From NCBI GenBank assembly GCA_001940725.1, contig MDVR01000007.1, positions 14,213-78,212 of the forward strand: 64,000 nt of DNA, in the 5' to 3' direction. The stretch is from Candidatus Heimdallarchaeota archaeon LC_2. GTDB taxonomy: Archaea; Asgardarchaeota; Heimdallarchaeia; Heimdallarchaeales; Kariarchaeaceae. The notes below the pieces were generated by a model. The model was not told the origin of the DNA and searched no databases. It worked only from the letters and a program-made list of their open reading frames with translations. The stretch's first letter is position 1. Every line of letters begins with the position of its first letter. The position numbers and the translations under genes were made by a program. Positions 4,884 through 63,824 of this stretch are shown here, piece after piece.

Positions 4884-5798
4884 TTATTTAGTTCTTCGTT
4901 TAATTATCCCATAAACTATTATGCCAAACAGTGACAACCAAGTTAAAGGACTATCAGATGTAGTTGAATTTATAACTGAGGATGTATCAGTATGGGATTT
5001 ACCTGAACTTTGTTGATCAGTTGAAGTCGTCGTTATTGTAGTTTTCGTGTAAGTTGAAGTATTAGTTATCATGTCTTGAACTACAACATTGTCAAATATT
5101 ATTCCGGGTTCTGATGTAAAATAAAAGGATTTTGACGTTTTGTATGTGTTATCTTGAACCTCAATACGAAGAGAATCATTAATGAATACTTTGAATAATC
5201 CTGTTTCATCTCTGGTTACTTCAATGTGATACCAGCCCTTGATTTCGTCTACTCTGTACTCTCCAATAATAAGAGTTGGATTTCGTCTGACAAGAAGAAA
5301 TGAAGGAGCAGTATCATCAAATGGTTTCATCCAATTTGGTGGTCCATAAGTATATGGTGCAGAATAAATGAAAATGTCATAACAACAGAATGTACTGTCA
5401 TAAAGAGGCACTTGATCTGGTTCCCGATCTTCTATGAAATAAATGTGAGTATGGTTAGAAGAGCCAAAAAAAGGTTCAACCTTTACATCAAAACTCCATG
5501 AGCCATAAGCAATCTGACTTTCATGGGTTGCATAACTAAAATTTCTAAATACCCTGTCACCATTAAAAACCAGTTCATTGTTTATAACATCAACCGAACC
5601 TTGGGTATATCGATCAGAGCCACTAGGAGGCGCGTAATATCCATTAATTATCCATCCATCGTGATCTCCATCATTGAAATCGTCTGACCAAGTAATTGAT
5701 TGGGTTAATAAGTCATTTGATTGTGAAGTTATCAGATTTGATGAAGAGATCAAAAGTACAATCAGAAGTGGAAGATTGCTTAGGGTTTTATGTGTCAT
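4884..5798 (-). CDS. Secreted, membrane-anchored surface protein (jelly-roll-like ectodomain)
   Basis: A 304-residue protein with an N-terminal signal peptide (hydrophobic residues about 9-24). A beta-rich ectodomain opens with WSDDFNDGDHDGWIING, the kind of opening seen in concanavalin/laminin-G-like secreted domains. A Thr/Ser-rich stalk follows at about 245-282, then one membrane helix near 284-299 and the basic tail KRRTK. It has adjacent cysteines in STFCCYD. It is probably displayed on the cell surface and may bind sugars or another surface polymer, but the ligand is unknown. It is divergent from the beta-helix regulator gene that starts at 5998, with about 200 bp of shared upstream DNA, so the two may be co-regulated. 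Confidence 0.75.
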   Translation of the reverse strand: MTHKTLSNLPLLIVLLISSSNLITSQSNDLLTQSITWSDDFNDGDHDGWIINGYYAPPSGSDRYTQGSVDVINNELVFNGDRVFRNFSYATHESQIAYGSWSFDVKVEPFFGSSNHTHIYFIEDREPDQVPLYDSTFCCYDIFIYSAPYTYGPPNWMKPFDDTAPSFLLVRRNPTLIIGEYRVDEIKGWYHIEVTRDETGLFKVFINDSLRIEVQDNTYKTSKSFYFTSEPGIIFDNVVVQDMITNTSTYTKTTITTTSTDQQSSGKSHTDTSSVINSTTSDSPLTWLSLFGIIVYGIIKRRTK

Positions 5799-5997
5799 AT
5801 ATGAAGTTCGTATTATTTTTCTTAAATTACTTAATAAGTGTTATTTAACTCGAAAAAATACGCACAACCAATGTTTATATATGATTTACTTCGAACAAGA
5901 TTTAATATAAAATTTTCCTTTAACTGAAAAGTTGTTGGGAAGTTAGATTACTAGTTGGTGGATCAAGAACATTAAAATCGATAGATCAATAATTACT

Positions 5998-7869
5998 TTG
6001 TCTTTAATAATCATAGGAATACAAGTGATAATTACAAGTTCGAATCTAAGTATCTTGGGTAATAATACAAACACAATCAAAACCGATCAAATCATTGAGG
6101 ACTCAACAATAATAATTGGAAATGATGAATTCTTGGATTTTTCCGAGGATTATAATTTACCCGGTAATGGGTCCCAACAAAATCCATTTGTGATATCCAA
6201 TTTTGAATTTTCACGCCCTGATGCTCCAACAAGTCCATATACCCCATTATTTTATCTTGAAGGAATTTCATACCATATTGTGATAACTGATAGCATATTT
6301 TATGAACGAAAATCAGAAGGATGTGGCCCTTGTGATGCTGGATTTGGACTTTCACCATTTACAATAAAAGGAGGGACAAATCTGACTATTCTTAGAAATA
6401 TAATTGACATCGCAGTTTACGGAGACACAGGTATAAAAATTGAAGGTGATGATATTAAGATGATCGAAAATGATCTAGGCTGTGATAATACAGGAGGGGA
6501 GGAAGCATCGTTTAATGATTTTCTAATGAGCGGTAATCATAATGTATTCTCACGAAATTGCATTGGTTATACAATTCGGGGATTATATTTTAATGTCAAT
6601 AGCTCGATTATTGAAAATAATATCATTCAAACCACATTTACTGGATCGAGAAGACTTTCAACATCTCCGGGTGAAATTGCAATGTCACTTAATGGTAATA
6701 ATAATATTATACAAGATAACTTAATTACTAGTGTTTCAGTTGGCATTGTAGTTCATAATGGATTAAATAACCTTATTTATAATAATTCTATAACTTCAGG
6801 TTTGATTACTAATAATCAGCAAGATGCTATTGTTATTTCGGGTGGTTATACAACAGTAATCGGGAACACAATATCGAATTCTTACGGATATGGTATTAGC
6901 CTTGGATTTCTATATGGGGATGAAAATGAAATAGCAGATCAGCCAATTATATATAACAATTTTATTAACAATAGTATTAGCGTGAATGTTTTACCTTTCC
7001 AAACTCAAGCTTTCGATCAGAATGGATTGGCTTATTTTTCAAGTAATTTCTGGGATGACCACACAAACTTTGACGAAAATCAAGATGGAATTGCAGATGA
7101 TCCGTATTTGATAATTAACAACACCGATAATGAGCCATTAATCAATCCAGTTTCTCCATCTGACACTCGCATTAATGAGATACTCAACCAACTAACTGTT
7201 TACAAACAATTGAAAGACGAGTTTGATCTTGACATCGACCTAAATGAGGAGTTTGATGATAGTACGAATGAATATTTGAATTTTCGCGAAAGTAAGCTCA
7301 TTCTTGCTGGAATTGGATTATTCACACTCTCTGGTATTGGGTTTGCTGGTTACATCTGGTATCAAAGATCGATATTAACTCAAATATCGTCGTTAGTCAT
7401 TAATGATCATACTAATCTTAATTTGAAAGAACTGTTCAATGGAAAATCTTCCGAATTTCTATTAATAGCGAATGGTGTTCTTAGACCTGATAAAAGTTAT
7501 ACATCAGGTTCTAAAATACCTGAAAAAATTTTTGAATTCAAGTTTTTAATGCATCCTGTCCGTCTATCAATAATGAAATTATTAGTTGAAAACCCATATA
7601 CTACTAGCAATGAGATTAGAGAACGCTTGAAGATATCTTGGGGCGAGTTTTCCAACCATCTGAGAAACATGAGAAAAGCCAACTATATCGAAACAAAGGA
7701 TCAATTCATTGATGGTATAAGACGCCAGGTAATGGTAGTTACAGATGATGGTAATACTAAATATCAACAGCTGATCTCGATACTTACTGAATTCATTACT
7801 TCGGGTGATTTTGAGTCTTACATGAATGATACAAAAAATATTGCGAATCAAGAATCAGGATTAAATTAA
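5998..7869 (+). CDS. Membrane-spanning beta-helix protein with cytoplasmic winged-helix domain
   Basis: A 623-residue protein with three parts. Residues about 1-20 form a signal anchor. Residues about 50-380 are a run of short Asn/Ile-rich repeats (IIENNII, NNIIQDNLI, NNLIYNNSI, TTVIGNTIS) typical of a right-handed parallel beta-helix of the NosD/CASH type. A membrane helix at about 434-455 is followed by a C-terminal winged helix at about 510-600, with HPVRLSIMKLLVENP and an ArsR-like recognition helix (SWGEFSNHLRNM). The order predicts an outside sensor joined to an inside DNA-binding domain, a one-component membrane regulator. The start is uncertain: there is no in-frame ATG or GTG back to the stop at 5944-5946, so TTG at 5998 is used. 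Basic residues just upstream would suit a longer signal peptide started at a non-standard codon. Confidence 0.85.
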   Translation: MSLIIIGIQVIITSSNLSILGNNTNTIKTDQIIEDSTIIIGNDEFLDFSEDYNLPGNGSQQNPFVISNFEFSRPDAPTSPYTPLFYLEGISYHIVITDSIFYERKSEGCGPCDAGFGLSPFTIKGGTNLTILRNIIDIAVYGDTGIKIEGDDIKMIENDLGCDNTGGEEASFNDFLMSGNHNVFSRNCIGYTIRGLYFNVNSSIIENNIIQTTFTGSRRLSTSPGEIAMSLNGNNNIIQDNLITSVSVGIVVHNGLNNLIYNNSITSGLITNNQQDAIVISGGYTTVIGNTISNSYGYGISLGFLYGDENEIADQPIIYNNFINNSISVNVLPFQTQAFDQNGLAYFSSNFWDDHTNFDENQDGIADDPYLIINNTDNEPLINPVSPSDTRINEILNQLTVYKQLKDEFDLDIDLNEEFDDSTNEYLNFRESKLILAGIGLFTLSGIGFAGYIWYQRSILTQISSLVINDHTNLNLKELFNGKSSEFLLIANGVLRPDKSYTSGSKIPEKIFEFKFLMHPVRLSIMKLLVENPYTTSNEIRERLKISWGEFSNHLRNMRKANYIETKDQFIDGIRRQVMVVTDDGNTKYQQLISILTEFITSGDFESYMNDTKNIANQESGLN

Positions 7870-9087: not shown

Positions 9088-9753
9088 CTAATTTGATCTT
9101 CTTTTAACTAAAATGAATAGTCCAAATGATGAAAGACTCAAAACGATGCTTGGAAAATTAACTTCCAATGATCCTGATTTTGTATCTGGTGAATCAGTTA
9201 TCACATTCCAATAAGTTGGAACTTTATCACTACTAAATTCGACAACTCCATTTGATAAATTCATGAAAGCTTTTACAAATGATACATCATCCTTGTAAGA
9301 CCAAGAATTGGGATCACCCAAAGTAAGTTCATATGAACCATCAGGAAGAGTATCAATAGATGAATCCTCAAATAGTAATTCTGTATTTCCAGATATTGCT
9401 GTTAATCCTGGAGAATAATTGACATGAGTGATTGCCTCACCGCAAGCAATAGAATTGTAAATACGTGTACCATCTGAAATAGTAGGAGGATCAATAACTA
9501 AGTGAAATTTACAAGTATTTGAGTGTTGGATTTCGATCGAAGTATCATACCTATTCCATATCTCAGCTTCATAAATAACTTCGAATGTAGTATAACCAGT
9601 TCCCTTGTTGCTATTTCCTATGGATACAGAAGTTACTCTCGTAGTAAGTTGATTATCCACTTCAGGATGGGAATTAGATTGTGCCAATTGAATTTGGGTA
9701 GCAAAAAGGATTAATATTAAAAATACAAATATTCCACTAATTCGATAATTCAT
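9088..9753 (-). CDS. Secreted surface protein with C-terminal membrane anchor
   Basis: A 221-residue hypothetical protein. It has a clean signal peptide (residues about 6-25, ending near AQS), a beta-rich ectodomain of about 165 residues with two cysteines (CKFH and IACGE) that could form a disulfide, then a membrane helix near 199-216 and the basic tail KRRSN. The end layout matches the proteins at 4884-5798 and 23359-25746. No family is recognised. It lies between adenosine deaminase and the TnpB gene, all on the minus strand but with separate spacers, so an operon is unlikely. Confidence 0.7.
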   Translation of the reverse strand: MNYRISGIFVFLILILFATQIQLAQSNSHPEVDNQLTTRVTSVSIGNSNKGTGYTTFEVIYEAEIWNRYDTSIEIQHSNTCKFHLVIDPPTISDGTRIYNSIACGEAITHVNYSPGLTAISGNTELLFEDSSIDTLPDGSYELTLGDPNSWSYKDDVSFVKAFMNLSNGVVEFSSDKVPTYWNVITDSPDTKSGSLEVNFPSIVLSLSSFGLFILVKRRSN

Positions 9754-9903: not shown

Positions 9904-9924
9904 GTAGCTATCCTAGGATGCTAC
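9904..9924. repeat. Near-perfect palindrome at the tnpB stop codon
   Basis: GTAGC and GCTAC arms flank the ten-base palindrome ATCCTAGGAT, with one unpaired T at 9909. The TAG stop of tnpB (9913-9915, minus strand) lies inside the palindrome. IS200/IS605 elements carry imperfect palindromes near their ends that TnpA recognises and that often shape the end of the guide RNA, so this may mark the right end of the element. Confidence 0.65.
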
Positions 9925-10040
9925 GATAGGGATAATGACGGGAGCCCCTCTCAGAAAACCTATAGCCTTCTGAGCTAGTTTATTCAATACATATTCATCG
10001 TCAAAATATTTATCTTCAATATTACGTGAAGCATTAAGAT
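9904..10040 (-). ncRNA. Candidate TnpB guide (omega/right-end) RNA
   Basis: TnpB proteins use an RNA made from the 3' end of their own gene plus the flanking right end. Here the last part of tnpB and the first bases beyond its stop hold nested inverted repeats: CTCAGAA at 9950-9956 with TTCTGAG at 9968-9974, and the palindrome at 9904-9924. An alternative pairing is CTATC 9908-9912 with GATAG 9925-9929. These fit a structured scaffold reading leftward. The guide itself would be the DNA immediately left of the element, and neither RNA boundary can be fixed by eye. Confidence 0.4.
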
Positions 10041-11073
10041 CTGAAGTAAGGTTAAAACCACAGGATGTACACAAAAAATGTGCACCATTGCGATTATTGC
10101 GTGATATATATGCACAATTATTACATCGTTGTGATGTATATGCAGGATCGACATATATAATTTCAATATTTTTTTCCTTAGCTTTGTACTCTAGAAAAAT
10201 TTGAAATTGATAGAAACCCCAAGAATTCAGTTCTCTACTTTGTCTTGATCTTTTACGATATCTGGCAGTTTTCCTTATTTTGATTAAATCTTCTAATATT
10301 ATTGTTGAATTTAATTTCATATTTTGAATGAATGTTTTTGTAATACAATGGTTCTGATCCCTCTGAAACCGTCTTTCTCTACCAGCAATTTGTTTTAATC
10401 TTCTCTTTGCTGATGGAGTGCCTTTCTTCTGGAGTCCACGTTTAAGTCTAAAATATCGATTTTTTATCTCACGAAGACGTATACCATTGTAGAATTTATT
10501 TTGCGATGTTACTGCTATATGCTTTATACCACGATCAATACCAATAAATTGACCAGAATGTTTTCCTTCTACTTTAGAATACTTTCTGACAACAAAATGT
10601 AGAAAATATCTATCACCTCTCTTCAACAATTCAAAACTACGAAATTCCCAATCAACATATTGTTGATAACATTTCGGAAGAGAGTATTGAAGTGTCACTC
10701 GTTTTTTAGTTGTGGAGAGAGTCACATATCTCGATTCATGAAATATGGTTGAAGATCGGTAATCATATCGAATGGGGATTTTATTGGAGAAATTTACAAG
10801 TCGTCTTATTCTTTTTGCCTTCAAGCTCTTGATTACATCGACAGCCTTGTTTTTTGCATTAATTACAAGCTGAGAATTGAGCGAGGACTTTTCACGAACT
10901 GATTTGTAAATTGCATGATGAATTTTTATTCGATTAGAAGTATCGTTGGTGTAAGCGTAGTTGTATGCAGTTTGAGCCGCTTTGGAATATTCTTCAAAAG
11001 TTCTTTCTAATTCTTTTTTGATTTGATTATCTGGATAAACTTGAACTCGCAAAGTTCTCGTAAGAATACTCAC
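9913..11073 (-). CDS. tnpB: TnpB, RNA-guided nuclease of IS200/IS605-type elements
   Basis: A 386-residue TnpB with an intact RuvC-like active site: Asp180 in FIGIDRGIKHIAV, Glu261 in IILEDLIKIR and Asp345 in TSDLNASRNI. A four-cysteine zinc ribbon sits inside the last part (Cys317, Cys320, Cys335, Cys338). The length is usual for the family. In characterised members the enzyme cuts DNA matching a guide RNA transcribed from the element's own right end, which helps the element persist. No TnpA transposase lies beside it, so this is either an IS1341-type lone tnpB, mobilised in trans, or a stranded copy. The frame is undamaged, suggesting a recent arrival or selection to keep it. Confidence 0.93.
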   Translation of the reverse strand: MSILTRTLRVQVYPDNQIKKELERTFEEYSKAAQTAYNYAYTNDTSNRIKIHHAIYKSVREKSSLNSQLVINAKNKAVDVIKSLKAKRIRRLVNFSNKIPIRYDYRSSTIFHESRYVTLSTTKKRVTLQYSLPKCYQQYVDWEFRSFELLKRGDRYFLHFVVRKYSKVEGKHSGQFIGIDRGIKHIAVTSQNKFYNGIRLREIKNRYFRLKRGLQKKGTPSAKRRLKQIAGRERRFQRDQNHCITKTFIQNMKLNSTIILEDLIKIRKTARYRKRSRQSRELNSWGFYQFQIFLEYKAKEKNIEIIYVDPAYTSQRCNNCAYISRNNRNGAHFLCTSCGFNLTSDLNASRNIEDKYFDDEYVLNKLAQKAIGFLRGAPVIIPIVAS

Positions 11074-13963: not shown

Positions 13964-14818
13964 GTGACCTTTGCAATAATAACGGATTCAGCATCTGATA
14001 TAGAACCAGAGTTTGAAAGAAAAGAGAATATCTTTATTGTACCAACTATAATTATTTTTGATAAAGAAGAGTTTAGAGATACAGAAATAAATCGAAATGA
14101 GTTTCTCAATCGCATTAAATCTGGTGATATAGCTACCACTTCACAACCTTCACCTGCAGATATTGATGATAAATATAGGGAAGCATTGAAAATCTCCGAA
14201 AGTAAGGAAATATTAGGAATCCATTTAACCTCTAGGCTCAGTGGTACATTTTCTACAGTTTATAGTGTGGTAAATAATTTGGAGACAGGTACCATAAAAT
14301 TATTCGATTCACTGAGCATTTCAATAGGCTCCGGATATTTTGTTTATTTAGCGGCATTTCTTCGAAATAAAGGTTATTCATTAGATGAAACATTGAATAT
14401 TCTGGTAAAAGCAAGAAATCAAATTCATGTCGAAATTTATATTCAAGGGGTTCCATACCTACATAGAAGTGGAAGAATAAGCCTTGGTCAATATTCATTG
14501 CTAAGATTATTGAGATTGAAACCTATTCTGAATATTGTTGATGGATTATTAGTACAGAAAGGTCTGGTATTTGGGCAATCTGGGGGATCTAAAAAACTAA
14601 TTTCTAGGATTTTAAAGATAGATAAGGGTATGAATCCATTTATTATGATTGGTCACGCAACAAATCCTGAATTTATGGATATTTTTAGGAAGGAATTAGC
14701 TGTTTTAAATCCTTCACAAATTGCTGAAGTTGAAATTTGTAATACTTTGATTTCCCACACGGGTCTTGGACCATTGGGTATCGGCATAGCCCCAAGTTTT
14801 GAATCGTTAATTCAATAA
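13964..14818 (+). CDS. DegV family fatty-acid-binding protein
   Basis: A 284-residue DegV-like protein, started at GTG 13964 because no ATG fits the conserved N-terminus. It opens with IITDSASDIEPEF, the usual strand and phosphate-binding Ser. TSQPSPADI and HLTSRLSGTFST are the two other family signatures. Bacterial homologues (FakB) hold a fatty acid for a kinase partner (FakA); no FakA-like gene is present here, so the role may be fatty-acid carriage. It lies 44 bp after aconitase and about 175 bp before an acyl-CoA synthetase, a lipid-related setting. Confidence 0.88.
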   Translation: MTFAIITDSASDIEPEFERKENIFIVPTIIIFDKEEFRDTEINRNEFLNRIKSGDIATTSQPSPADIDDKYREALKISESKEILGIHLTSRLSGTFSTVYSVVNNLETGTIKLFDSLSISIGSGYFVYLAAFLRNKGYSLDETLNILVKARNQIHVEIYIQGVPYLHRSGRISLGQYSLLRLLRLKPILNIVDGLLVQKGLVFGQSGGSKKLISRILKIDKGMNPFIMIGHATNPEFMDIFRKELAVLNPSQIAEVEICNTLISHTGLGPLGIGIAPSFESLIQ

Positions 14819-18573: not shown

Positions 18574-19707
18574 TTATTGATCAGCTAGAGGTATTGATGG
18601 ATCGAATCCTAATACTTTCAAGGTTAGAGATAGAAATTCAAATTCTTTCAATACAGTCATATCATGAATAGAAATTTGATAAGTTTCTGGTTCATCTACA
18701 ATGTAATCCTGTTTTAAATAGTATTTCATCACTTCGTCAAAGGCTTTGTTATATTCATCAAAAGTTGAATGTGCAGAGATTAAGAAACCATCAAGATTTT
18801 TAGAAACATAGAAATGTGGTGAAATAAGTCTTCGTACTAACTCAACCGCTTCTTCCCTTTCATTCATAGTGGTTTTTGCATTAAATTTACGATGAGTAAA
18901 CACTAATAATTTAAGTCCTAACTTCTCAAGATTAGGAACAACTCTTGGAAAACAAATCTTGTTCTTCAAGAATTTCCTCTTGGCATTGGCAACGGTATTT
19001 CTAGATACACCTACTTTTTCTGCGATTAAAGTGTCCGATTCTTCAGGATACTTAACTAGACCTGCAAGTACCTTTCGTTCGGCTTTAGAGAGCTTAGCCA
19101 AAACCACACCATCAGTAGGAATGAGAAGGTCTTCATTGTATTCCGAAGATTCGAAACCGAATAATCTTGCAACTAGGGCTTCATAATCCATAAAAGCTCT
19201 TACCCTAGAAATCTCAAATGGATATGCATCAATCTGCATTCCTTGTCTGGTTAAGAATTTATTTTCAGAATATAATTGATAGAACTTCTCTTGATTCTTA
19301 GAATACTCAGTATAATTCTCAGATATTGATAAATTGAATGCTTTATTGGATTCCGAAACAACATAAAAATCTTCAATAAATCCCTTAATTGTCTCACCAG
19401 CAACTCGCATTCGTTCCTCAAGTGTTGTGAAACGATTGAGATGACCATGCATTACCATTAACAACTCAAATCCTATTAATGGAAAATTAGGAATATAATA
19501 ACGACGGTAATAATCATGTTCCCTTAATCGAGCTTTAATAGAACTGAATGTACTCTTCTTCATACCAATTTCGGAATGAATAGCTTGATCAGATAGATTA
19601 GGCCATCGAACTAATGAATGAAGAACTCTAGCTTCATTCTGACTCAATTGGTGAACTGCTGAATTACGGCTAATATCAGCAAGTCCTGTTGGTGAGAAAT
19701 TTTGCAT
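18574..19707 (-). CDS. Transcription regulator with two similar HTH modules
   Basis: A 377-residue regulator formed of two related halves. The first half has a winged-helix block starting LSQNEARVLHSLVRWPNLSD with recognition helix KKSTFSSIKARL near residues 50-65, followed by an alpha/beta domain. The second half repeats the pattern with LSKAERKVLAGLVKYPEESD and helix SRNTVANAKRKFL near 230-245, again followed by a similar domain (LEKLGLKLLVFTHRKFN matches FPLIGFELLMVMHGHLN). This looks like an internal duplication giving a built-in pseudo-dimer, perhaps Lrp-like in origin. Its target is unknown. It converges with hutI with only about 50 bp between stops. Confidence 0.8.
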   Translation of the reverse strand: MQNFSPTGLADISRNSAVHQLSQNEARVLHSLVRWPNLSDQAIHSEIGMKKSTFSSIKARLREHDYYRRYYIPNFPLIGFELLMVMHGHLNRFTTLEERMRVAGETIKGFIEDFYVVSESNKAFNLSISENYTEYSKNQEKFYQLYSENKFLTRQGMQIDAYPFEISRVRAFMDYEALVARLFGFESSEYNEDLLIPTDGVVLAKLSKAERKVLAGLVKYPEESDTLIAEKVGVSRNTVANAKRKFLKNKICFPRVVPNLEKLGLKLLVFTHRKFNAKTTMNEREEAVELVRRLISPHFYVSKNLDGFLISAHSTFDEYNKAFDEVMKYYLKQDYIVDEPETYQISIHDMTVLKEFEFLSLTLKVLGFDPSIPLADQ

Positions 19708-23358: not shown

Positions 23359-25746
23359 TTAAGAAAAATTCTTTTTCTTTCTGGAAATTATTGTAAGTCC
23401 AAGAATTGAGAAGATAATTAAATAGATATTTGAAAACGGGAGTGGCAATTCAGCTGTTGTTTCTTCTTCACTAATATTTGGATCTGAAGTTGTGGTACGA
23501 GGTTCTGATGTTGATGTAGGAAGTACTGATGTTGTTGGGTCATCGGATGTATTTCCTGTTGGTTCTGATGAAACTACTTCGGGTTCAACAGTTACAATAG
23601 TTTCTGCCACACCAACATTTCCTGAACCATCTGAAAATTCTGCTCGGTAAACATATTCACCAACTTCCAATCCGTCAATATCGAGACCGATTTGAACAAA
23701 ATCAGACCAAAAGCCGTTATCTAACATCGTAACAACTCCAGATACGTCGGTTCGATAAATGACATAAGTATCAGGATCTACATCAGAAGGTTGCCAAAAT
23801 AGAACATTCAAAGTACTCCCAACCACATATGAATACCGATCTAAGGCACTACCAATAACTGGAGCAACTGTGTCCCTCACAAAAACAATAGTTGTGAATG
23901 ATGCTTCATTCCCATAAATATCAGTTGTATTAAGTTGGAATTCATAAGTTCCGGGAGTAAATGGTGTTAGATCAACACCAGGTTGAAATAAGCCGTCTGT
24001 CCAACTGCCAGATGACAAAGATGTGCCATTCAAATAAATATTAAAAGATCCGTCACTATCATCAGTAATTAACCATTGAACTTGTGCACTGGGATCACCC
24101 AATTCAACTAGAAGTTCGACGGGTCCGGTGATTATTGGTGCTGTATTATCACCGATGAGTTGATTTCCACCCCATGATAAATTATCAATAATCCATTGTC
24201 CGTCATCTGCTATAGGATAATCAAAATGGATTGAAGAAATATCATCAGTAGAGCTTGATAAAGATACAAAATACGTTTCAGTATTGGCAGGTATGTTTAC
24301 AATTGCTACTATTCCGCCTGTAGAATTTAGAGCTTCTACTGGGAATGGTTCTGAACCAACATTAGTAACATAAACGCTTACATATCTTGCTGGTTGATCA
24401 AATTGGATGAAATTTTTGAAATCATAACTATAAGCAACGAAATGAGGTGAAGATGCTGTAAATGAAGTACTTGTTGAATTCCATGTTAGCCAATCAAATG
24501 AAAATGTTACTCCAGAATATGCAGTTTCTAAAATTGTAGATCCTGGAAGAGTGTCAAACGTAATCCATTCACTATATGCAGTAGGAATGGGATTTGTACT
24601 CCAATGTAAATCATCAATAACCCATTGTCCATTTGTAGATGGAGCATAGTTGAAATGAATATTGTCAATATTAGGAACATCTGATGCGACTGAAACATAA
24701 AAAGCTTCAACATTACCAGGTATTGTTGCATTTGAAACTAATTTTCCTAGAGAGTCATAACCTTCTAGGAAAATTGGAAGTGAAAAAACATTAGTGACAT
24801 AAACGCTAACAAATTTTGCAGCTTGATCGAATTGGACGAAATTATTAAAATCATAACTATAAGCAACACTTGGAGCTGAGGATGCTATAAATGGGCCAGA
24901 AGTAACCCAAGATTCCCAGTCCCATGAAAATGTAACTCCAGAATATGCATTAGTTAGATTTGTAAAGTTTGGCACTTCATCAAATGTAATTAAATTATCA
25001 ATCACAGGTATATTTGTGTAAAGTAGATAATCTACAGCATTTGTTATAATTTCACCCAAATCACCAACTACGTTGAGACCGACATAGGCATTTAATGCAA
25101 CAACTGAACCTTTTTCTGCAACCATTGGTTGACCGTCAGTATATGAGGCAACTAATTTAGCACCTGAAGTTAAGGAAACAGTTTGGGCATATCCGGGATT
25201 AAATGAATTAATACCATTCATAATAGCGTGGTTTGATAATCCATCATATGTTCTGTTTATATTTGATACTGATCCCCAAACAGGCGAATATCCGGATGAA
25301 TTAAATCTACCTAAAATACTATACCCTGATGAGAAAGAATGAGCTAACAGGAGAACCTTACCTCCTTGATCTATGTAATCTGCAACAACATTACCCATAG
25401 CAGTTGAATTATAATAATTCCAGTTATTCATAAGAATAACCAAAGGGTAACTAGATAAATCAGTCAGTGCAGGTGTTGCAGATTGAGCATCTAAATAAAC
25501 TGCTGAATAATCTACAAGCCCTGCAAATGCAAAATCTAGAGAAGTAACAGAATCTGCATGCACAACAAGAATTTCTGTTAATGCATTGGTGTTATAACTA
25601 GTAGATTCTCCTATTGATGATAATTCGTAATCATTACTGCCATTTGATGATCCAATAACTAAAAAACCGGATCCTAAAACTAATATTACAGCAAGGAGTG
25701 AGAAGCTAAATATTTTATTTTTGATCATATGTTCCACTTTTTTCAA
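23359..25746 (-). CDS. Large surface protein with duplicated beta-domains and membrane anchor
   Basis: A 795-residue secreted protein. A signal peptide lies at about 8-32 (ATG at residue 7 may be the true start). Residues about 50-245 resemble a glutamine-amidotransferase/ThuA-like fold (LVILMNNWNYYNS, DQGGKVLLLAHSF). Two closely related modules follow at about 253-390 and 394-525 (YSGVTFSWDWESW / YSGVTFSFDWLTW; YSYDFNNFVQFDQ / YSYDFKNFIQFDQ). Then come two Ig-like domains (about 535-705), a Thr/Ser/Pro-rich stalk, a membrane helix at about 772-789 and the tail SRKKKNFS. It likely projects from the cell surface, for adhesion or polymer binding. The duplicated modules have similar but not identical DNA, so the duplication is old. 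Confidence 0.85.
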   Translation of the reverse strand: MKKVEHMIKNKIFSFSLLAVILVLGSGFLVIGSSNGSNDYELSSIGESTSYNTNALTEILVVHADSVTSLDFAFAGLVDYSAVYLDAQSATPALTDLSSYPLVILMNNWNYYNSTAMGNVVADYIDQGGKVLLLAHSFSSGYSILGRFNSSGYSPVWGSVSNINRTYDGLSNHAIMNGINSFNPGYAQTVSLTSGAKLVASYTDGQPMVAEKGSVVALNAYVGLNVVGDLGEIITNAVDYLLYTNIPVIDNLITFDEVPNFTNLTNAYSGVTFSWDWESWVTSGPFIASSAPSVAYSYDFNNFVQFDQAAKFVSVYVTNVFSLPIFLEGYDSLGKLVSNATIPGNVEAFYVSVASDVPNIDNIHFNYAPSTNGQWVIDDLHWSTNPIPTAYSEWITFDTLPGSTILETAYSGVTFSFDWLTWNSTSTSFTASSPHFVAYSYDFKNFIQFDQPARYVSVYVTNVGSEPFPVEALNSTGGIVAIVNIPANTETYFVSLSSSTDDISSIHFDYPIADDGQWIIDNLSWGGNQLIGDNTAPIITGPVELLVELGDPSAQVQWLITDDSDGSFNIYLNGTSLSSGSWTDGLFQPGVDLTPFTPGTYEFQLNTTDIYGNEASFTTIVFVRDTVAPVIGSALDRYSYVVGSTLNVLFWQPSDVDPDTYVIYRTDVSGVVTMLDNGFWSDFVQIGLDIDGLEVGEYVYRAEFSDGSGNVGVAETIVTVEPEVVSSEPTGNTSDDPTTSVLPTSTSEPRTTTSDPNISEEETTAELPLPFSNIYLIIFSILGLTIISRKKKNFS

Positions 25747-35713: not shown

Positions 35714-36712
35714 ATGGAACCTACAGAGATTATACTGGGATTACTGAAAAAAGTCGATCGAGAGAATTTAATGGATGAAATCTACGATTCTACTTTGACT
35801 AGATTTCAAGAGAAAAATTTAATTTCCTTGGATCTCGGATCGCTAGAATTGATTTCACTCCCTGAAGATTTATTTGATGGATTAGACACAATTGAGGAAA
35901 TCTATCTAATAAATAATAAATTAACAACTCTCCCACAAAAAATATTCAGACAGTTAAATGACTTAAAATCAATTGATTTATCTGATAATGAACTCGAAGA
36001 ATTACCCGACGGTATTTTTAGTAATAATCCCAATCTGAAAGTCCTTGATTTGGAAGGTAACAACTTGACTAGATTACCATCTGAAATCCGAATAATGAAA
36101 AATTTATTAGAATTAGATTTATCCTCAAATAATTTTGAAGATCTAAATGTAGATCAATTTGAAAATATGACAAAGCTTCAATTGCTGGATCTTGATGATA
36201 ATCAAGTATCAAATCTTCACGATAATTTATTTGATAATTTATTAAATTTAAAAGTTTTAAATATTTACAACAATCGTGTTACAGAAGTTAATCATTATTT
36301 ATTTCATAAACTAATAAATTTAGAAATTTTATCGTTATCAAAAAATTTAATCAAGAACCTTTCCGAAGATAATTTTAAGCATTTGAAGAACTTAACTTAT
36401 CTAGGAATTGGGGGTAATTATCTCACTTCACTTCCAAATAATGTGTTTGATAATTTATCAAACTTAGAGACATTGTCATTATCATATAATAAAATTCAAA
36501 CTTTAGAAGAAAATGTGTTTAACAATCTAGGTAATTTAACAAGGATAGATCTTGTTGATAATAATTTAACGAAAATTCCTTCATCGATTAAAAATTTGGA
36601 CAAATTAACTGTTTTAAATCTAGAGGGAAATCCTTTACCAGAGAAGCTTGCAAATAATTTTGAAACGATAGACCAAGTGAAAGGGATTTACGGATATATT
36701 AAATCGGAATAG
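35714..36712 (+). CDS. Leucine-rich repeat protein
   Basis: A 332-residue cytoplasmic protein. After about 40 residues come some eleven leucine-rich repeats of 23-24 residues (for example LKSIDLSDNELEELPDGIF, LKVLDLEGNNLTRLPSEI, LQLLDLDDNQVSNLHDNLF). The repeats form a solenoid used for protein binding; consensus L-x-L-x-N is clear. There is no signal peptide or catalytic domain, so it is probably an adaptor. LRR proteins of this kind are frequent in Asgard genomes. Its last 14 bp overlap tail-to-tail with the RidA gene on the other strand. Confidence 0.9.
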   Translation: MEPTEIILGLLKKVDRENLMDEIYDSTLTRFQEKNLISLDLGSLELISLPEDLFDGLDTIEEIYLINNKLTTLPQKIFRQLNDLKSIDLSDNELEELPDGIFSNNPNLKVLDLEGNNLTRLPSEIRIMKNLLELDLSSNNFEDLNVDQFENMTKLQLLDLDDNQVSNLHDNLFDNLLNLKVLNIYNNRVTEVNHYLFHKLINLEILSLSKNLIKNLSEDNFKHLKNLTYLGIGGNYLTSLPNNVFDNLSNLETLSLSYNKIQTLEENVFNNLGNLTRIDLVDNNLTKIPSSIKNLDKLTVLNLEGNPLPEKLANNFETIDQVKGIYGYIKSE

Positions 36713-57480: not shown

Positions 57481-58431
57481 TTGAGCACCTCAGCCAACAA
57501 ACCTAATAGTAATACCAATGCCACTGGTCTTATATGTCCAGAATGTGGATCAAAAAATTTGATTGTCGATAAAACCCGAGGAGAAACAATCTGTAGAGAA
57601 TGCGGGACAGTAGTCGACGACTTACTAATTGATGATGCACCAGAATGGAGAGCTTATAATTCTTCTGAAAGAGAGAGTAGGTCAAGAATAGGTGCACCTA
57701 CAACTTATACAATACACGATAAAGGTTTATCAACTCAAATCGGTAGTGAAGATAGGGATGTATTTGGACAGAAATTATCTGCAAGTGCAAGAAATCGATT
57801 TCATAGACTAAGAAAATGGAATGCTAGAAGTAGAATTCATTCATCAAGTGATAGAAATCTTACCAAGGCAATGCGAGAATTAGACAGATTAGCAAGTCAA
57901 ATGACTTTACCAAAAACGGTGAAAGAAACAGCTTCTATTATTTACAGAAAAGCATTACAAGCAAATTTAATTCGAGGAAGATCTATTGAAGAAATGATTT
58001 CAGCAGCCACTTATGCGGCAGCCAGACAAAGGCATCTACCAAGAACCCTTGATGAAATTGCAAGTCATTCTAGAATCAGCAAGAAAGATTTAGGTCGTGC
58101 TTATAGACTATTAATAACTGAATTAAAACTTAATATCCCCCTTGCAGATCCAATTAACTATATTGTTAGGTTTGCATCCGAATTAGGTTTAAGTGGAGTT
58201 GTAGCTGCAGAGGCCAGAGATATCGTTCTCAGAGCCAAAAGTCAAAGATTAGCAATGGGTAAGGACCCTGTATCATTAGCAGCAGCAAGTATTTACATTG
58301 CTGGAATTCTACATAGTCAACAATTAACTCAGCAAGGTATTGCAGATGTTGCCGGCGTAACAGAAGTAACAATTAGAAATAGATACAAAGAACTGGTTAA
58401 GAAATTAGAAATTACAGCACCGCTCTATTAA
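57481..58431 (+). CDS. tfb: Transcription initiation factor IIB (TFB)
   Basis: The archaeal TFIIB homologue, which joins TBP-bound promoters to RNA polymerase. The 316 residues have the N-terminal zinc ribbon (CPECGS ... CRECGTVVDD, about 19-42), the B-reader region (APEWRAYNSSERESRSRIG), and two cyclin-like repeats (about 115-205 and 210-305), with the recognition helix QQGIADVAGVTEVTIRNRYKEL near the end. The start is TTG 57481, because a GGAGG site sits 9 bp upstream and no ATG fits. A HEAT-repeat protein follows 54 bp later. TFB is the clearest evidence that the window is archaeal. Confidence 0.97.
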   Translation: MSTSANKPNSNTNATGLICPECGSKNLIVDKTRGETICRECGTVVDDLLIDDAPEWRAYNSSERESRSRIGAPTTYTIHDKGLSTQIGSEDRDVFGQKLSASARNRFHRLRKWNARSRIHSSSDRNLTKAMRELDRLASQMTLPKTVKETASIIYRKALQANLIRGRSIEEMISAATYAAARQRHLPRTLDEIASHSRISKKDLGRAYRLLITELKLNIPLADPINYIVRFASELGLSGVVAAEARDIVLRAKSQRLAMGKDPVSLAAASIYIAGILHSQQLTQQGIADVAGVTEVTIRNRYKELVKKLEITAPLY

Positions 58432-62731: not shown

Positions 62732-63289
62732 TTATTTCTTAAAGGCTTGTTTTAATCTAGCTTGAAGTTGACTTTTCATATCTTCTGCTGAAACTGGTTT
62801 ATCTCCATCTTCATTATCATCATCAGACGGGGGTGTACCATCCTTTTTCGGAGTTTTCTTTAATCCAGCTAAAGCTTGTTTTGGATCAAAACCTAGTGGC
62901 CCACTTCCAGAGTCTTTTTCTTTAACTGGAGCTTTTTTTAGTCCAGCTAATGCTTCCTTGGGATCAAAACCGGCTGCACCGACTTCAGAAGCTATTTCCT
63001 CTACAGGTGCTTTTTTAAGACCAGCTAATGCTTCTGCAGGGTTAAAACCCATTGACCCACCTCCTGAAGGAGGTGCCGCAGATAGGCTTGGACCTGCTGA
63101 TGGAGCGGGGGCGGATTCAAGACTAGGACCTGGTGCAGGTGCTACAGGTGCCGCAGATAAATTTGGACCTGCTGATGGAGCGGGGGCGGATTCAAGACTC
63201 GGACCGGGGGCTGCTGCTGCGGGTGCTACGGGGGCAGCGGATAAGTTTGGACCAATAACAGTAACAAATTCTTGAGGTTTAATGGTCAA
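62732..63289 (-). CDS. Ala/Pro-rich protein with three FxPxxALAGLKK motifs, intact C-terminal copy
   Basis: A 185-residue product of the first repeat unit. The N-terminal third is Ala/Pro/Gly/Ser-rich (repeated PNLSAAPVAP and GPSLESAPAPS), likely unstructured. Three copies of a short motif follow: GFNPAEALAGLKKAP, GFDPKEALAGLKKAP and GFDPKQALAGLKKTP. An acidic stretch (DDDNEDGD) and a basic amphipathic helix ending QARLKQAFKK complete it. The TTG at 63287-63289 is the only start available; in the original gene it may be an ATG just beyond the repeat junction. It resembles eukaryote-like linear-motif proteins in layout. DNA is much richer in G and C than its surroundings. Confidence 0.55.
   Translation of the reverse strand: MTIKPQEFVTVIGPNLSAAPVAPAAAAPGPSLESAPAPSAGPNLSAAPVAPAPGPSLESAPAPSAGPSLSAAPPSGGGSMGFNPAEALAGLKKAPVEEIASEVGAAGFDPKEALAGLKKAPVKEKDSGSGPLGFDPKQALAGLKKTPKKDGTPPSDDDNEDGDKPVSAEDMKSQLQARLKQAFKK
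62754..63288. repeat. Tandem 535-bp repeat, unit 1
   Basis: This unit is repeated at 63289-63823 and again, cut by the window edge, from 63824. Units 1 and 2 differ at a single base (A at 62807, T at 63342) over 535 bp; unit 3 agrees with unit 2 as far as it goes. The shared sequence begins with AATCTAG, a likely micro-homology at the junctions. 535 is not a multiple of three, so each junction shifts the reading frame. Confidence 0.93.
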
Positions 63290-63824
63290 ATCTAGCTTGA
63301 AGTTGACTTTTCATATCTTCTGCTGAAACTGGTTTATCTCCTTCTTCATTATCATCATCAGACGGGGGTGTACCATCCTTTTTCGGAGTTTTCTTTAATC
63401 CAGCTAAAGCTTGTTTTGGATCAAAACCTAGTGGCCCACTTCCAGAGTCTTTTTCTTTAACTGGAGCTTTTTTTAGTCCAGCTAATGCTTCCTTGGGATC
63501 AAAACCGGCTGCACCGACTTCAGAAGCTATTTCCTCTACAGGTGCTTTTTTAAGACCAGCTAATGCTTCTGCAGGGTTAAAACCCATTGACCCACCTCCT
63601 GAAGGAGGTGCCGCAGATAGGCTTGGACCTGCTGATGGAGCGGGGGCGGATTCAAGACTAGGACCTGGTGCAGGTGCTACAGGTGCCGCAGATAAATTTG
63701 GACCTGCTGATGGAGCGGGGGCGGATTCAAGACTCGGACCGGGGGCTGCTGCTGCGGGTGCTACGGGGGCAGCGGATAAGTTTGGACCAATAACAGTAAC
63801 AAATTCTTGAGGTTTAATGGTCAA
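63279..63824 (-). CDS. Copy 2 of the Ala/Pro-rich gene, truncated at the repeat junction
   Basis: The same 178 residues as the copy at 62732-63289, with one change in the acidic stretch (Asp to Glu), but its end is FDH and a stop instead of LKQAFKK. The repeat junction shifts the frame and replaces the last seven residues. Without the basic end helix the product may not work. If the array is real, only the last copy on the minus strand (62732-63289) keeps the full protein; if the array is an assembly error, this copy does not exist. Confidence 0.35.
   Translation of the reverse strand: MTIKPQEFVTVIGPNLSAAPVAPAAAAPGPSLESAPAPSAGPNLSAAPVAPAPGPSLESAPAPSAGPSLSAAPPSGGGSMGFNPAEALAGLKKAPVEEIASEVGAAGFDPKEALAGLKKAPVKEKDSGSGPLGFDPKQALAGLKKTPKKDGTPPSDDDNEEGDKPVSAEDMKSQLQARFDH
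63289..63823. repeat. Tandem 535-bp repeat, unit 2
   Basis: Second unit of the tandem array, directly joined to units 1 and 3 with no spacer. It is identical to unit 1 except for T in place of A at 63342. Confidence 0.93.

Follow-up and report, generated by a model that had tools for sequence, protein, structure and literature searches.

A predicted membrane-spanning regulator with a beta-helix ectodomain and a winged helix in Candidatus Heimdallarchaeota archaeon LC_2

The gene at 5998..7869 in a stretch of Candidatus Heimdallarchaeota archaeon LC_2 DNA specifies a chain that starts with a hydrophobic segment, continues through a parallel beta-helix and a single membrane helix and ends in a winged helix; this architecture is confirmed as real. 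The stretch (hereafter the window) comprises 64,000 nucleotides, positions 14,213 to 78,212 of contig MDVR01000007.1 (assembly GCA_001940725.1, forward strand). The protein is probably a single-pass transmembrane transcription regulator, with a ligand-binding beta-helix outside the cell and a tethered winged helix inside. Its C-terminal part recurs in four other proteins, where it is joined to differing outer domains.

Domain architecture and topology

The features of the gene are as follows.

5998..7869 (+): whole gene, predicted receptor; 623 amino acids (aa) from TTG, single unbroken frame
5998..6060 (+): hydrophobic N-terminal signal anchor or signal peptide; hydropathy peak 2.07
6073..7119 (+): parallel beta-helix ectodomain, about residues 26-374; AlphaFold2 (AF2) model, structure matches
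7294..7362 (+): membrane-spanning helix (residues 433-455) whose acidic side faces outwards; hydropathy, charge
7363..7557 (+): juxtamembrane linker of about 65 residues, cytoplasmic side; kept in P0006, P0007 and P0008, diverged in P0009 (alignment, pairwise matches)
7558..7797 (+): winged helix-turn-helix (HTH), HTH_34 family; Pfam PF13601, PH1061 profile match, five-protein alignment

The C-terminal domain matches HTH_34 (PF13601) over residues 521-600 with 50.7 bits, against a gathering cut-off of 27, and the same family exceeds its cut-off in the related proteins P0006, P0007, P0008 and P0009. Three of the seven Pfam families listed for the protein lie above their cut-offs, namely HTH_34, HTH_24 (PF13412) and the ArsR-type HTH_5 (PF01022); the other four lie below. 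All nine listed NCBIfam matches are below cut-off, including the ArsR/SmtB metalloregulator (NF033788; 30 versus 55 bits). A C-terminal profile of five sequences matches PH1061 (1ub9) at profile positions 81-172 with an expect value (E) of 2.8e-7; a three-sequence version gave E 3.1e-6. Among the columns that never vary in the five proteins are K-F-L-x-H-P-V-R, W-x-x-x-x-x-H (a histidine six residues past the tryptophan) and M-K. Over residues 521-600 AF2 gave block means of the predicted local distance difference test (pLDDT) of 30-55, and helices only, without the wing. The alignment used by AF2 contained four beta-helix proteins without a listed HTH family, which probably harmed the C-terminal part. 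As this part of the model is of low confidence and lacks the wing, the winged helix rests on the sequence profiles, which support a domain of the DNA-binding type.

For the ectodomain, AF2 yields a beta-helix fold at modest confidence (block means 46-87 over residues 31-330). Structure matches include alginate epimerases, polysaccharide lyases of family 6 (PL6), polygalacturonases and an adhesin, and similar scores are obtained by polysaccharide enzymes, tailspikes and NosD. The NosD profile (TIGR04247) matches residues 311-377 below threshold, with 29.8 bits against a cut-off of 300. Candidate ligands would be a glycan or surface polymer, plausible because of the fold, or a metal, because of the resemblance to NosD. 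That the protein responds to a polysaccharide or polymer signal, as the first-pass annotation of this DNA proposed, is only a guess.

A hydropathy scan found two hydrophobic segments above threshold, the N-terminus and approximately residues 433-455. The N-terminus of P0007 is similarly hydrophobic (hydropathy), and those of P0008 and P0009 resemble signal peptides by eye. The membrane helix was placed by the scan in three proteins, and by eye in P0008 and P0009. In all five members the outer part, counted without its first 30 residues, has a strong negative charge (-22 to -50), and the inner part a slight positive one (+1 to +4). Next to the membrane helix, again in five of five, the preceding 20 residues carry a charge of -2 to -6 and the following 20 one of 0 to +5. 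These patterns agree with an N-out/C-in orientation throughout the family, which would place the winged helix inside.

The database version of the protein (P0001, 614 aa) begins at GTG 6025 and truncates the hydrophobic N-terminus, which the TTG start at 5998 retains. The start may lie even further upstream, for example at ATT 5971, which would add basic residues ahead of the hydrophobic stretch and has GGTGG nine bases 5' of it. This start remains a guess, because a Shine-Dalgarno-like motif was present in only 7 of the 31 ATG-start open reading frames (ORFs) checked.

All four elements that the first-pass annotation had placed in a single chain are supported: the signal anchor, the long beta-helix, the membrane helix and the winged helix. 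A helix-turn-helix in the C-terminal domain and a location of this domain inside the cell, both of which it had assumed, are borne out by the profiles and by topology signs that agree in five of five members. The structure prediction of the full chain that it had suggested supports the beta-helix; its C-terminal part, being so uncertain, weighs neither for nor against the winged helix.

A shared inner part with differing outer domains

The last ~190 residues of the protein recur in P0006, P0007, P0008 and P0009, two of which are also from Heimdallarchaeota LC_2. The outer domain is a beta-helix in two of the five members, a beta-propeller in two and a family-5 solute-binding domain in one; the outer part of P0007 is homologous to the beta-helix described here. 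Pairwise comparison found the inner part common to all 10 pairs and the outer part to only 2. Sequence and structure comparison show that the family joins one part, made up of membrane helix, linker and winged helix, to differing outer domains. An inner part that is kept while the outer domain is swapped is as expected of receptors with exchangeable sensors, and this exchange, read from sequence comparison, is the strongest argument for a receptor function. The earlier interpretation as a one-component receptor is thereby supported in part: the outside domain is sensor-like and swapped, and the inside domain, of DNA-binding type, is kept, with the charge signs alike in all five.

Six-frame ORFs of at least 50 aa yielded no further copy of the inner part elsewhere in the window (next best E 0.11), and tblastn with the whole protein as query retrieved nothing at E 0.01 from 72,556 plasmid records. 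The full-length search scored 7998 candidates and yielded, apart from the query itself, four beta-helix proteins whose listed Pfam content includes no HTH family; these do not show the fusion.

A gene for transcription factor B (TFB) lies at 57481-58431 of the window. It has 256 matching plasmid records, all less than 60% identical; the ten listed come from haloarchaea and are annotated as 'transcription initiation factor IIB'. Four haloarchaeal plasmids from these 256 were searched with the five-protein profile, and one showed weak similarity (E 8e-4) across 50 positions within a 134-aa frame. DUF7343, a haloarchaeal type with ectodomain, membrane segment and HTH, was matched in three of the four plasmids (five matches, one above cut-off); two of the five frames look soluble by eye, and nothing usable was obtained. 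HTH_34 gave two weak matches in one plasmid, neither above cut-off.

Proposed mechanism, alternatives and gene neighborhood

In the proposed mechanism the beta-helix would bind a ligand outside the cell. Binding would alter the oligomeric (dimeric) state or the conformation of the protein, and this change would be relayed across the membrane by the single helix and onward through the linker. Without being released from the membrane, the HTH_34 winged helix in the cytoplasm would then change its binding to promoter DNA, a step suggested by the domain itself and by known transmembrane regulators.

Several observations weigh against this mechanism. In both AF2 models the C-terminal part is of low confidence and forms helices without wing strands. 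N-glycosylation sequons show no outer-side enrichment over shuffles in any of the five members. The last 130 residues are near charge balance, with 18 positive charges against 17 negative ones in the window protein and 14 against 19 in P0008, and strong DNA affinity is not evident from this charge. No dyad beyond chance was found upstream of the gene. The family consists of five members only, from searches that miss relatives; none were confirmed in genome contigs or viral contigs by scans that require exact short peptides, which distant relatives may escape.

The main alternative is regulated proteolysis, in which a cut at or near the membrane helix frees linker and winged helix as a soluble regulator. 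The anatomy would be identical, a membrane helix followed by an inside C-terminal domain of DNA-binding type, and the ~65-residue linker would leave the winged helix free after the cut. We nevertheless regard it as unlikely: no protease family is found among the four neighboring proteins scanned (other genes were not examined for proteases), and in the main text of a survey of such regulators (PMC10269533) they act from the membrane.

Less likely again is a winged helix that serves protein contact or a general tethering of DNA to the membrane, not promoter reading. The near-balanced charge of the last 130 residues would suit this role, and some archaeal winged helices have structural roles. 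Against it stand the motif K-F-L-x-H-P-V-R and the tryptophan with its following histidine, invariant in five proteins, as well as the matches to HTH_34 and ArsR-type HTH_5 above cut-offs; the exchange of outer domains is also harder to explain for a mere tether.

The structure matches to alginate epimerases, PL6 lyases, polygalacturonases and an adhesin could also indicate that the beta-helix acts above all as an anchored enzyme or adhesin, whose inner domain merely adjusts expression of its own gene. This is very improbable, since other members carry a propeller or a solute-binding domain on the same inner part. An assembly or gene-calling artefact that fused a surface protein to a regulator, for which the non-ATG start codon and the shorter database version might be cited, is practically negligible given the unbroken frame and, above all, the fusion of the inner part to an outer domain in four other proteins, which speaks strongly against it.

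A tethered regulator remains the preferred reading, and a candidate target lies beside the gene.

4884..5798 (-): divergent gene of an apparently exported protein whose C-terminus is hydrophobic (by eye)
5799..5997 (no strand): intergenic DNA between the divergent genes; imperfect dyad 5874-5911, TATA-like motifs at 5874 (+) and 5911 (-)

The protein at 4884-5798 is a possible target of the receptor. It has no Pfam family above cut-off, and its matches in the Protein Data Bank (PDB) are all non-significant (best E 0.59, a levanase). The TATA-like motifs of both divergent genes fall inside the imperfect dyad. The dyad was considered as an operator and rejected, as it is equalled in 490 of 2000 shuffles and is no better than chance; with even-centered dyads alone, 143 of 1000 shuffles reach it, and its center TTCGAA is present 21 times in the window.

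Three apparently exported proteins, at 4884-5798, 9088-9753 and 23359-25746 (-), end in a hydrophobic stretch followed by K/R (by eye), and these ends resemble a common C-terminal surface anchor. Elsewhere in the window, the gene at 9913-11073 (-) is IS605 OrfB/TnpB-like and codes for a Cas12f1-like TNB domain (Pfam E 9.8e-22). The 377-aa protein at 18574-19707 (-) has an HTH match in each half, TrmB above and MarR below cut-off, and 35714-36712 (+) encodes a 332-aa leucine-rich-repeat protein (LRR_8, E 4.6e-52) with no obvious signal peptide by eye. Two adjoining ORFs at 62732-63824 (-) encode nearly identical Ala/Pro-rich proteins of 185 and 181 aa, both with internal 75- and 78-base repeats; the offset between them is about 535 bases, and the pair is either a tandem duplication or one introduced by the assembly. 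The 64 kb contain no tRNA by ARAGORN and no Rfam match at the gathering threshold.

Comparison with known systems

Asgard archaea are the closest known prokaryotic relatives of eukaryotes, and to our knowledge little is known of how they sense their surroundings. We lean, by a small measure, towards the view that Heimdall-type Asgard archaea own a plug-in receptor family, in which a shared output part with unrelated sensors would pass surface glycans, nutrients and other cues directly to transcription, with neither kinases nor second messengers. One output part with interchangeable outer domains would offer a direct handle, the winged helix for the DNA motif and the outer domains for the ligands, and the family would show modular receptor building in archaea with a C-terminal DNA-binding domain.

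CadC and ToxR have an N-terminal DNA-binding domain of the OmpR type. The window protein gave no OmpR-type Pfam match up to E 1, and its domain order is reversed, with the HTH at the C-terminus. It would resemble them in having an extracytoplasmic sensor and in binding DNA while in the membrane (compare PMC5430869). NosD, the beta-helix protein of the NosDFY transporter, differs in that the beta-helix of the window protein continues into a membrane helix and a winged helix; no transporter family was matched in the four neighboring proteins scanned with Pfam. PH1061 (1ub9) is the closest solved sequence to the inner part and has an HTH_34-like winged helix; it is, however, only 100 residues long and has neither a membrane helix nor an outer domain.

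ArnR and ArnR1 of Sulfolobus acidocaldarius, the archaeal cases characterized in PMC6396743, are likewise membrane-bound one-component regulators and govern surface structures. According to the available text of that paper they have an N-terminal HTH, a putative HAMP, a sensing domain and two C-terminal membrane helices, whereas the window protein carries its HTH at the C-terminal end and has a large outer domain and a single membrane helix in the interior of the chain. The available text of PMC13286277 mentions ArnR and EarA. That of PMC5847659 treats archaeal two-component systems, including those of Asgard, and does not contain 'one-component'. TfoS and ChiS of Vibrio cholerae are chitin-responsive regulators acting at the membrane (PMC11856585, in part); the likeness would be a polysaccharide response from the membrane.

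To the first-pass annotation the pairing of beta-helix and winged helix was not familiar as a described system. No title or opening abstract among the literature matches listed describes the receptor family (subscription papers were mostly outside the scope), and for SgrR, a solute-binding and winged-helix regulator, no usable paper was among them. The pairing, as a subfamily, was thus not found in the literature searched; the class is already in print as transmembrane transcription regulators (TTRs; PMC10269533), so that the principle is known. The main text of this survey counts 50,302 TTRs, of which 1,384 are archaeal, and about 57% contain only a DNA-binding domain; 'asgard', 'beta-propeller' and 'solute-binding' do not occur in this main text. 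Two defining features of a TTR, a membrane region (predicted here by hydropathy) and a predicted DNA-binding domain in the same chain, are found in the window protein, and regulation of transcription from the membrane would be a third. The window protein also shares the single-pass form most prevalent in the survey. It differs in that the outer domain is recognizable and is exchanged within one family.
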